Of a DNA stretch of 11,535 bases, positions 5,884-7,145 are shown piece after piece; the stretch's first letter is position 1; each line of letters starts with the position of its first letter. Origin of the DNA: Thermoplasmata archaeon (GTDB lineage Archaea > Thermoplasmatota > Thermoplasmata > Lutacidiplasmatales > UBA184); the NCBI GenBank assembly GCA_030039825.1, contig JASHUV010000072.1:1-11535 (forward strand). The letters are read 5' to 3'. The notes below the pieces were generated by a model. That model was not told where the DNA came from and did no database searches. It worked only from the letters and a program-made list of their open reading frames with translations. The position numbers were made by a program, and so were the translations under genes.

Positions 5884-5893
5884 CCTTTATTTG
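5884..5893 (+). promoter_or_regulatory. TATA-like box of the tRNA-Gln/tRNA-Leu unit
   Basis: TTTATTT (5886-5892) is centred about 29 nt upstream of the tRNA-Gln 5' end at 5918, in GC-rich surroundings. No comparable box precedes tRNA-Leu, so the two tRNAs are probably transcribed together. Confidence 0.6.
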
Positions 5894-5917: not shown

Positions 5918-6024
5918 AGCCCCGTAGTGTAGTGGCCAATCATGCGAGACTCTGGATCTCGCGACGCAGGTTCGAACGCTCCCGGGGGCCGAACCCCCCG
6001 GGGTCGGAACTCCTGCCGGGGCTA
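5918..6024 (+). tRNA. tRNA-Gln(CUG) with a 34-nt intron in the T loop
   Basis: The acceptor AGCCCCG (5918-5924) pairs with CGGGGCU (6017-6023) and the discriminator is A6024. The D stem is GUG/CAU with U13.U22 unpaired, and the D loop contains GG. The anticodon stem CGAGA/UCUCG encloses loop CUCUGGA, giving anticodon CUG (5952-5954). A 4-nt variable loop follows. The T stem GCAGG (5966-5970) pairs with CCUGC (6012-6016), but 41 nt lie between them instead of 7. Removing about 34 nt (near 5977-6010) restores loop UUCGAAU and a 73-nt mature tRNA. The intron folds into an 8-bp hairpin. CCA is not encoded. In archaea this tRNA is normally charged first with glutamate and then amidated. Confidence 0.93.
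5977..6010 (+). other. tRNA-Gln intron (position about 59/60, T loop)
   Basis: A 34-nt insertion between T-loop residues 59 and 60; the exact ends are uncertain by 1-2 nt. CCCGGGGG (5981-5988) pairs with CCCCCGGG (5995-6002) around loop CCGAAC. Exon GUUC (5970-5973) can pair with intron-end GAAC (6007-6010), leaving short unpaired segments at both junctions: a relaxed bulge-helix-bulge rather than the canonical 3-4-3 form. Confidence 0.8.
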
Positions 6025-6026
6025 CT

Positions 6027-6043
6027 CCCCGATCTCCTCGGGG
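6027..6043 (+). other. perfect hairpin between tRNA-Gln and tRNA-Leu
   Basis: CCCCGA (6027-6032) pairs perfectly with TCGGGG (6038-6043) around a 5-nt loop. It occupies half of the 33-nt spacer between the two tRNA genes. No T-run follows, so it is more likely a processing or spacer structure in a shared precursor than a terminator. Confidence 0.55.
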
Positions 6044-6081
6044 CGGGCCGTACCATTGCGGGGGTGCTCCAGCTCGGCCAA

Positions 6082-6108
6082 TCCGGTCCCTCCGGGAACC
6101 GGGGCCAC
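6082..6108 (+). other. tRNA-Leu intron 1 (position 21/22, D arm), canonical BHB
   Basis: A canonical bulge-helix-bulge is visible. The central 4-bp helix is GGCC (6076-6079) with GGCC (6103-6106), flanked by 3-nt bulges AAU (6080-6082) and ACC (6107-6109). Outer pairs are CUC (6073-6075) with GAG (6110-6112); the intron hairpin is CCGGU-CCC with GGG-A-ACCGG. Cutting after the second base of each bulge, the known rule, excises exactly 6082-6108 and restores the D stem. Confidence 0.87.
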
Positions 6109-6156
6109 CGAGGCAGGGCTTAGGACCCTGTTGCCTAGGGCATGCGCCGGTTCAAA

Positions 6157-6188
6157 GGGCGAGGCGGCCCCGGCCGCCCGCCGGGAAC
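6157..6188 (+). other. tRNA-Leu intron 2 (position about 59/60, T loop)
   Basis: An insertion of about 32 nt at the same T-loop site as in the neighbouring tRNA-Gln. The intron folds as GGCG-A-GGCGGC (6158-6168) with GCCGCC-CGCC (6173-6182). Exon GUUC (6150-6153) pairs with GAAC (6185-6188). The 3' junction GGAAC/UCC is identical to that of the tRNA-Gln intron, while the hairpins differ. Exact cleavage sites are uncertain by 1-2 nt. Confidence 0.8.
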
Positions 6189-6242
6189 TCCGGCCCCCCG
6201 CATCCCGGCTCCGTCCCCGTCCCTGACCGGTCGGAGCGCGCG

Positions 6243-7145
6243 ATGGCGACGCCGGCGCTCCTCGATCCCCGCCAGATCCTCGCCCTCGATCCCGCCGGCG
6301 CCGATGCGCTGCTCGACCGGCTCGAACGGACGGTCCCGGTGCGACCGCCGCTCGTCGAGTTCGCCCCGCCGGGCGCCCGCGAGGGCACGGTCTTCGGGGA
6401 CACGCACGGCGATTGGCGATCGACGATCGCCGCCGCCCAGCGATTCTGGAGCGCCCCGTCGGCGGGCGCCCTCGTCGGTCTCGGCGACTACATCGACCGT
6501 CCGCCGGAGGACTGCGGCGAGGGCTCGGTCGCGAACGCGCTCCTCCTGCTCCAATGGACCGCCGCCTTCCCGGAGCGCGTCCTTCTCATCCAAGGGAACC
6601 ACGAGGCCCACCGACGGATCGCCGTCGTCCCTCACGGCCTCGCGGAGGAGGTCGATCAGCTCTGGGGCCCGGAGGAGGCGCGCTACCTCCGCCTGATGGC
6701 GCTGCTCGAGCGCGGGCCGCTCGCCGCGACGACGGCGAGCGGCGCCTTCCTGGCGCACGGGGGCTTCCCTCGGGCGGTCGGGTCCGATCCGTACCCCCAG
6801 GAGTTCCGGGCCGACGACGACGAGGTCCTCGCGGAGATCGTGTGGGGCGAACCGGACGCGGGTCGCTCGCGACGCGGGGTCGTGACCCCGTTCCGAGAGA
6901 GCGACCTCGACCGCTTCCTCGCCCGGAGCGGCACGCGCCTCTTCCTGCGCGGCCACGACCCGGACCTCACCGGACGACCGCTCTACGGCGGCCGCTGCCT
7001 GACCCTGCACACCTGCCGCCTCTACCAGCGCTTCGGCGGAGTGATCGCCGCCCGTCTCCCGCTCGACCGGACCGTCGCGAGGGCCGGCGACCTCCTCCTC
7101 GAGCACCTGGCGACGGAAGGCCGGGTCTACCCGCCCGTCGATTGA
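6243..7145 (+). CDS. PPP-family metallophosphatase (serine/threonine phosphatase-like)
   Basis: Protein of 300 aa with the complete calcineurin-like/PPP metal signature: GDTHG (52-56), GDYIDR (81-86) and GNHE (118-121), followed by metal-ligand histidines H172 (FLAHGGF) and H238 (FLRGHDP). These would bind two divalent metals and hydrolyse phosphate esters; the GDxxDR/GNHE pairing and spacing are those of protein Ser/Thr phosphatases rather than nucleotide pyrophosphatases. There is no signal peptide or membrane segment, so it is cytosolic. An N-terminal extension of about 45 residues precedes the core. The start ATG 6243 lies 40 nt after tRNA-Leu with no TATA-like box between, so it may be expressed by read-through from the tRNA unit. 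Its last 19 nt overlap the convergent tsr3 gene. The physiological substrate is unknown. Confidence 0.9.
   Translation: MATPALLDPRQILALDPAGADALLDRLERTVPVRPPLVEFAPPGAREGTVFGDTHGDWRSTIAAAQRFWSAPSAGALVGLGDYIDRPPEDCGEGSVANALLLLQWTAAFPERVLLIQGNHEAHRRIAVVPHGLAEEVDQLWGPEEARYLRLMALLERGPLAATTASGAFLAHGGFPRAVGSDPYPQEFRADDDEVLAEIVWGEPDAGRSRRGVVTPFRESDLDRFLARSGTRLFLRGHDPDLTGRPLYGGRCLTLHTCRLYQRFGGVIAARLPLDRTVARAGDLLLEHLATEGRVYPPVD

Follow-up and report, generated by a model that had tools for sequence, protein, structure and literature searches.

Does the window, the whole 11,535-nt stretch of DNA that we analysed, encode a working tRNA-Leu(UAG) that is interrupted at two unusual sites? The initial annotation had proposed such a gene, with one intron in the D arm and another in the T loop, both at non-canonical sites. 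Exons and introns placed by script fall at the same positions:

6058-6202, + strand: tRNA-Leu(UAG) gene, read as a working gene with two introns (split-tRNA scan and reading of the window)
6058..6081, + strand: tRNA-Leu exon 1, acceptor 5' strand and D arm to position 21 (placed by script; near-invariant among relatives)
6082..6108, + strand: tRNA-Leu intron 1, 27 nt, in the D arm (21/22), with exon GGCC opposite intron GGCC and bulges AA^T and AC^C (BHB central helix 4/4 in 40/40 genes)
6109..6156, + strand: tRNA-Leu exon 2, D stem 3' strand, arm of anticodon UAG, variable arm, and T stem and loop to position 59 (sequence reading and script)
6157..6188, + strand: tRNA-Leu intron 2, 32 nt, in the T loop (59/60), with T54-R57 opposite the 3' part of the intron and bulges A58A59^N and NN^T60 (54-56 paired in 41/41 genes)
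6189..6202, + strand: tRNA-Leu exon 3, T60, T stem 3' strand, acceptor 3' strand, and A73 (script)

ARAGORN calls no tRNA at 6058-6202, neither in the whole window nor in the isolated unspliced gene. From the joined exons it calls tRNA-Leu(tag) over 1-86, which is the full-length 86-nt tRNA that had been predicted once the inserts are removed. The anticodon loop reads CTTAGGA, so the usual site, 37/38, has no insert, as claimed. (In two congeneric loci, L268 and L276, the Leu loop is CCTAGGA, with C for T at the normally invariant position 33; our gene pattern dropped them.) Judging from the sequence, it is as good as certain that 6058-6202 encodes tRNA-Leu(UAG) and that its D arm and T loop are each interrupted by an intron. 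(At the left end of the window is a transposase-like ORF, 139-1077, with weak rve and HTH matches.)

We compared this gene with its counterparts in relatives. (Labels beginning with L and G are ours, for loci and genomes.) We fetched 39 loci by way of the neighbouring phosphatase, so these loci were not selected for the tRNA. They are mostly from Thermoplasmata MAGs, with one from Ca. Lutacidiplasma silvani; with these as its nearest named relatives, the host is a Lutacidiplasmatales-type archaeon of the Thermoplasmatota, from a group that lives in soil; this is the phylum that the initial annotation had suspected. The same Leu gene, with both inserts, lies in front of the phosphatase in 37 of the 39 loci, and the identity of its exons averages 98.2% (minimum 94.2%). 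As for the other two loci, L072 has the D-arm insert only and L058, which begins at the phosphatase match, has no Leu match.

Some orthologues naturally lack one or both inserts, and their junctions are exactly the ones predicted. The D intron of Leu is exactly absent from L098, and L221 is a second gene without it. The T-loop intron is exactly absent from L072 and from three g19/g20 loci, which retain the D intron, and in four g17 loci Leu has neither intron (L245-L247 by eye). The pattern for the Leu T intron was found in 76 of 103 genomes of the family and is confined to g1, g18, and g22 of seven genera. At 76 of 78 places this intron measures 32, 35, or 38 nt; the exceptions are G056 (33) and G078 (34). 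From this distribution, the Leu D intron seems to be older than the T intron, which probably arose before the split of g1, g18, and g22.

Both exon-intron borders of the tRNA-Leu introns have the pairing expected of a BHB motif, in the D arm in 40/40 genes and at positions 54-56 of the T loop in 41/41. In the D arm, exon GGCC pairs with intron GGCC, GGCT, or GGTC in those 40 genes. In all seven T-loop inserts of this genome, the intron ends in a two-base tail, and the four bases just ahead of it lie opposite T54-R57; the 5' bulge consists of A58-A59 and one intron base, the 3' bulge consists of the tail and T60, and the intron forms a hairpin. If base 57 is G, the intron mostly has C opposite, and if it is A, there is usually a mismatch (intron 2 of tRNA-Leu in this genome has A opposite G). 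Because the base facing A57 is usually unable to pair, the T-loop motif is often 3 bp and a mismatch.

The introns keep their pairing as they diverge. Among 41 distinct Leu genes, mean identity is 57% for 27-nt D introns and 63% for 35-nt T introns. (Exon identity in this set is inflated because the genes were found by a pattern that fixes most exon positions.) Five aligned T-loop inserts (T stem, central helix, and intron stem) have 90% standard pairs, versus 75.5% when shuffled, and 0/500 shuffles reach the observed value. In the intron stems, pairing is 92.8% for D27, 86.1% for T32, and 78.8% for T35, versus 71.6, 62.4, and 66.8% in shuffles, with 0/2000 reaching the observed values, and in the D30 class (n=5) the observed pairing is reached by 36/2000 shuffles; these statistics ignore relatedness among the loci.

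Could the inserts instead stay in the RNA, making this a pseudogene or giving a tRNA whose D and T loops are swollen? ARAGORN's failure to recognise the unspliced Leu gene would fit. But exons that are 98% conserved in 37 loci unselected for the tRNA, next to introns that diverge yet keep the BHB motif, are not what this explanation predicts, and neither are intronless orthologues with identical junctions. Also, the Gln-Leu gene pair is found in 65 of 78 congeners and in 25/25 near-complete ones. The initial annotation had named a second, intact tRNA-Leu(UAG) gene as evidence that would refute its own proposal, and none was read in the near-complete congener G001, whose Leu genes are CAA, GAG, TAA, CAG (by eye), and the interrupted TAG, with one unreadable 73-nt match (L161). 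A caveat is that our own genome, at 64% complete, could hide one. Retention of the inserts is extremely improbable, and from the comparison of sequences we conclude that both inserts are almost certainly spliced out.

The adjacent tRNA gene is interrupted as well:

5918..6024, + strand: tRNA-Gln(CUG) gene (anticodon CTG) with a T-loop intron (split-tRNA scan; joined exons called by ARAGORN)
5977..6010, + strand: tRNA-Gln T-loop intron (59/60), 34 nt (4-bp central helix TTCG:CGGA)

ARAGORN and Rfam put the 3' end of tRNA-Gln at 5990, versus 6024 once the intron is recognised. The initial annotation was right about both Leu introns and their sites, and it overlooked the T-loop introns of tRNA-Gln and of five other tRNA genes. 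With Rfam matches and the scan we found 20 tRNA genes in this 64%-complete genome, and seven have T-loop introns (Gln CTG, Leu TAG, Asn GTT, Gly TCC, Arg TCT, Glu CTC, and Ser CGA). Two of the 20 have D-arm introns (Leu TAG and Pro TGG) and two have anticodon-arm introns (Tyr and Leu TAA); Pro, Tyr, and Leu TAA were read by eye. (The D-arm insert of tRNA-Pro(TGG), L015 153-257, seems by eye to be about 30 nt.) When exons of the interrupted genes are joined, ARAGORN reports full-length tRNAs for 7/7, versus 2/7 when unspliced, both with wrong ends.

The congener G001 (93% complete) has 41 Rfam matches, one degenerate and one unread, besides Leu TAG. The introns in these genes number about 12 in the T loop, 3 in the D arm, and 4 in the anticodon arm (Asn by eye). 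Across the fetched loci, T-loop introns occur in 12 isodecoders of the genus. Several other features of G001 are worth recording. D-arm inserts are present in a Met(CAT) and in Arg(GCG). The degenerate match (L212, G001:C1:85313-85385, 27.3 bits) is tRNA-like and is possibly a pseudogene or an unusual tRNA. The tRNA-Trp (L180) has an anticodon-arm intron of 90 nt; in other archaea, according to the excerpted text of PMC4090602, anticodon-arm introns of tRNA-Trp can contain a C/D-box RNA.

T-loop introns scattered elsewhere in the class were also overlooked at first. Our model R1, built from five class I T arms, gives lower bounds (the T-loop introns of Leu and Ser in G000 escaped it, as did the tiny ones of G026); at E 0.01 it matched 25/25 genomes of the genus, 0/3 from two other families of the order, and 3/13 from elsewhere in the class. 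At E 0.001, it matched at least 71 of 250 genomes of the class: 28 from the genus, 16 from other genera of the family, and 27 from outside the family. Among the last group, 23 of the 27 have a single match, and within the family G192 has none. In the outside-family genomes inspected (G028, G029, and G038), the inserts are located in the T loop. Going by these matches, site 59/60 is used sporadically in the class and heavily in this family. (By eye, Arg in G038 and G029 has both anticodon-arm and T-loop inserts, and Gly(CCC) in G028 has a T-loop intron; these are L151, L152, and L153. In G026, which belongs to another family of the order, Asn and Arg(TCG) carry T-loop inserts that are about 13-15 nt long, along with anticodon-arm introns, also by eye; see L197 and L199.)

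Which enzyme could cut such introns? PF01974 matches twice within a single ORF in G000 and in six near-complete congeners (G001, G002, G013, G018, G019, and G022). No second EndA subunit was seen with PF01974 among 41 genomes, 5 of which have no match at all; in G011, a third match is a 111-aa piece at a contig edge. The invariant residues Y294, H302, and K333 align with catalytic residues of EndA from A. fulgidus, and we take their roles to be catalytic here as well. The model of EndA has a pLDDT of 93.1 and resembles the enzymes from M. kandleri (5x89, TM-score 0.85), A. fulgidus (2gjw, 0.74), ARMAN-2 (4fz2, 0.65), and Thermoplasma (2ohc, 0.62). EndA has two fused alpha repeats of which the second is catalytic, as in the alpha'2 type. 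It does not match the Thermoproteales type, in which alpha and beta are separate subunits and a CSL lies near the active site. Nor is there a CSL- or ASL-like insertion: against 1r0v and 2gjw, the catalytic half aligns through the site where the chimera 3p1y has its CSL. Judging from sequence and model, this lineage has a fused, alpha'2-like splicing endonuclease that lacks the loops tied to broad specificity. RtcB was found in 29 of the 31 genomes searched; in our own, incomplete assembly it is a fragment in a 107-aa ORF.

Excerpts of PMC6379350 class alpha'2 enzymes as narrow, with M. kandleri as a euryarchaeal exception of constrained broad specificity. A narrow-type enzyme may still be compatible with introns at 59/60, given that their 3-4-3 motifs are near-strict and it is their place that is new.

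The lengths of the introns raise another question, because they change in steps of 3: Leu D introns are 24, 27, 30, or 33 nt, Leu T introns are 32, 35, or 38 nt, and the Gln-Leu spacer is 27, 30, 33, or 36 nt. The D intron is a multiple of 3 in 69/71 genes, and the T intron is 2 mod 3 in 69/71. These lengths correspond to a reading frame through the precursor that was missed in the initial annotation, whose splicing structure otherwise stands:

6056..6226, + strand: conserved frame through the unspliced tRNA-Leu, from TTG at 6056-6058 (its last base is G1 of the tRNA) to TGA at 6224-6226 (comparative frame counts)
5942..6226, + strand: alternative start in the same frame, at an ATG inside tRNA-Gln, giving a 94-codon ORF (in frame and open in 52/53 loci)

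In a set of 55 genes, the frame is open through the tRNA in 55/55, and in 55/55 it first meets a stop 6-45 nt beyond the tRNA, versus 7 and 6 in the other frames. Openness within the tRNA is by itself weak proof, because another frame likewise lacks stops there in 49/55 genes. In the subset fetched by the phosphatase, the stop rule holds in 37/37, versus 5 and 4. With 71 genes, the first stop is 0-45 nt past the tRNA in 68, versus 8 and 7 in the other frames. The first codon at the 5' end of tRNA-Leu is ATG, GTG, or TTG in 63/71 genes (51/55 in the earlier set). Twenty further regions served as a test set; L275 and L277 repeat counted genes, and the pattern dropped L268, L269, and L276, which have exon variants (their stops, read by eye, are at +15, +18, and +30). 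The 15 new genes follow the stop rule in 12 cases (the other stops are at 51, 129, and 195 nt), versus 1 and 1 in the other frames, and 11 have a start triplet.

How well do length changes respect the frame? On a phosphatase tree with several open forks, we counted by hand about 16 length changes, of which 15 are multiples of 3. Loci added later have three Leu-intron length changes that are not multiples of 3 (L219/L270, L233, and L258), and in L038, where the spacer change is not a multiple of 3, the frame is broken between Gln and Leu. Apart from these three Leu-intron changes and one spacer change, indels keep the frame and no stop falls within it, as in a leader ORF. We consider the comparative evidence for a frame constraint on the Leu precursor to be strong. 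Since neither T-loop intron is a multiple of 3 (the remainder is 2 for Leu and 1 for Gln), the frame would be lost on splicing, and what stays readable is the unspliced RNA. (The tRNA-Gln intron is fixed at 34 nt in 68/68 loci with a Leu T-loop intron, and GT precedes the gene in 50/50, which is stricter than a step-of-3 rule requires.)

The frame leads to a third gene, and a possible promoter lies ahead of the first:

6243..7145, + strand: calcineurin-like phosphatase gene, putatively coupled to the leader frame (PF00149)
5886..5890, + strand: TATA-like box TTTAT, 32 nt ahead of tRNA-Gln, a candidate promoter for Gln, Leu, and phosphatase (sequence motif counts)

By its motifs, the phosphatase is presumably of the PPP type. 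A phosphatase motif lies within 300 nt downstream of the tRNA in 52/53 loci with the Leu T intron and in 1/5 without it. TTTA(T/A) is found at -31, -32, or -34 of tRNA-Gln in 44 of 64 loci (20 lack it), versus 0/64 in a control region at -100..-51. In translationally coupled operon leader ORFs, the upstream stop overlaps or just precedes the downstream start, for example as NTGA. Here too, the frame's stop lies beside the phosphatase start (within 0-45 nt of the tRNA in the 68/71 genes above), and it overlaps that start as NTGA in 13/53 loci, including L219 and L233, whose frames are shifted. At phosphatase starts in frame and within 60 nt, NTGA occurs 14 times in our frame, versus 2 and 5 times in the others. 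In L258, NTGA would be in frame if not for its 1-nt change; its own frame stops at +40. Unlike known coupled leaders, this one is a tRNA pair with three introns, RNase P is expected to cut inside the NTG codon (between NT and G), and the frame would shift once either T-loop intron was removed. From these patterns we infer a translated leader that is coupled to the phosphatase. Two other coding explanations were tried. An N-terminal extension of the phosphatase through the tRNA is ruled out, as its frame relative to tRNA-Leu takes all three values, and an antisense frame meets stops in all three frames of the variable parts (7, 24, and 6).

The frame might have arisen by accident: stops are scarce in GC-rich DNA, the remainder is set by the tRNA exons, and lengths could step by 3 through shared ancestry. 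In keeping with this, stops in the Leu introns are rare in any frame (0, 1, and 2), intron lengths cluster on the tree, codon positions in the introns vary about equally, and 3 of the 15 new loci miss the stop rule. But chance does not readily explain why stops in the first 60 nt after the tRNA are specific to one frame (57, versus 8 and 7) across a spread of 6-45 nt, or why the spacer has 0 stops in 521 codons, versus 9/521 and 2/472 in the others. Moreover, lengths do not step by 3 in general: T-loop introns of Arg, Glu, Gly, and Asp differ by single nucleotides, and in four loci without the Leu T intron, D introns are 31, 32, 33, and 35 nt and Gln introns are 33, 33, 34, and 35 nt (L244 replacing L248). 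And in L219 and L233, off-frame length changes are followed by an NTGA overlap in the shifted frame itself. An accident is unlikely.

At the opposite extreme, the frame might encode a functional small protein whose sequence matters. It is open and bounded by start-like and stop codons, as a gene for such a protein would be. But outside the fixed tRNA exons there is no clear codon-position bias and no visible conservation of amino acids, so this is very improbable. The absence of bias at variable positions suggests that it is the act of translation, and not the peptide, that matters. Given these comparisons, the frame through the unspliced precursor is probably translated.

Overall, we think it very likely that the locus holds a working, doubly interrupted tRNA-Leu(UAG) whose precursor would also serve as a translated leader to the phosphatase. 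Transcription probably starts from the TATA box before tRNA-Gln, and the transcript would be common to tRNA-Gln, tRNA-Leu, and the phosphatase gene. As it folds, the D arm and the T loop would each form a BHB motif. The genes for both processing enzymes are present: fused EndA would cut at both motifs, and RtcB would join the exons to give the 86-nt tRNA. The T-loop site would be reusable, in that an insert ending in a GRA-like triplet and two more bases could form a BHB motif there; T54-T55-C56 is present in nearly every tRNA, which would explain why the same site is interrupted in 12 isodecoders. Before processing, the same RNA would be translated through the unspliced tRNA to the stop beside the phosphatase start, so that translation of the phosphatase would depend on the unprocessed precursor. 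We lean towards a bifunctional pre-tRNA, in which translation of the Gln-Leu leader competes with RNase P and EndA, slow processing raises output of the PPP-type phosphatase, and intron length is under selection for frame.

How does this compare with other archaea? According to the excerpted text of PMC4090602, fewer than 10% of the tRNA genes of Euryarchaeota have introns, these are single and at the canonical position, and the enzymes are mostly alpha4 or alpha2. The intron load at 59/60 in this family contradicts that statement. The same excerpt describes introns in Crenarchaeota (Thermoproteales) and Nanoarchaeota that are similar in having BHB motifs outside 37/38, with 59/60 among the sites, in occurring several per tRNA and in many isodecoders, and in that intron transposition has been suggested. 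Here, in contrast, the host family is GC-rich and belongs to the Thermoplasmatota, 59/60 dominates, and EndA is fused and alpha'2-like instead of alpha2beta2. The epsilon2 EndA of ARMAN-2, the (alpha-beta)2 EndA with a CSL, and the M. kandleri enzyme, as described in excerpts of PMC12397907 and PMC6379350, share the EndA fold and the aligned catalytic residues and come from lineages with unusual introns. Unlike the ARMAN-2 epsilon2 and (alpha-beta)2 enzymes, EndA here has no ASL- or CSL-like insertion. M. kandleri is, in those excerpts, another euryarchaeote that copes with a relaxed motif.

A term search of PMC9287336, the paper on Lutacidiplasmatales genomes, finds four mentions of tRNA and none of introns. 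In open-licence PMC literature, none of the titles or abstracts among the matches listed deals with introns of this kind in Thermoplasmatota or with a reading frame that crosses a pre-tRNA. BHB tRNA introns are themselves known; what is new is a family-wide load of introns at 59/60 together with an alpha'2-like enzyme.

This lineage runs counter to the picture of euryarchaeal introns as few and canonical and of their endonucleases as strict: introns have entered many of its tRNA species at a single T-loop site that can be used again. Whether endonuclease loops and intron diversity are linked, as is supposed, thus becomes directly testable. We know of no earlier case of tRNA introns that are kept in phase by an overlapping frame. 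If the frame constraint is real, it would be the first such case known to us, and it suggests a simple sensor of tRNA processing.
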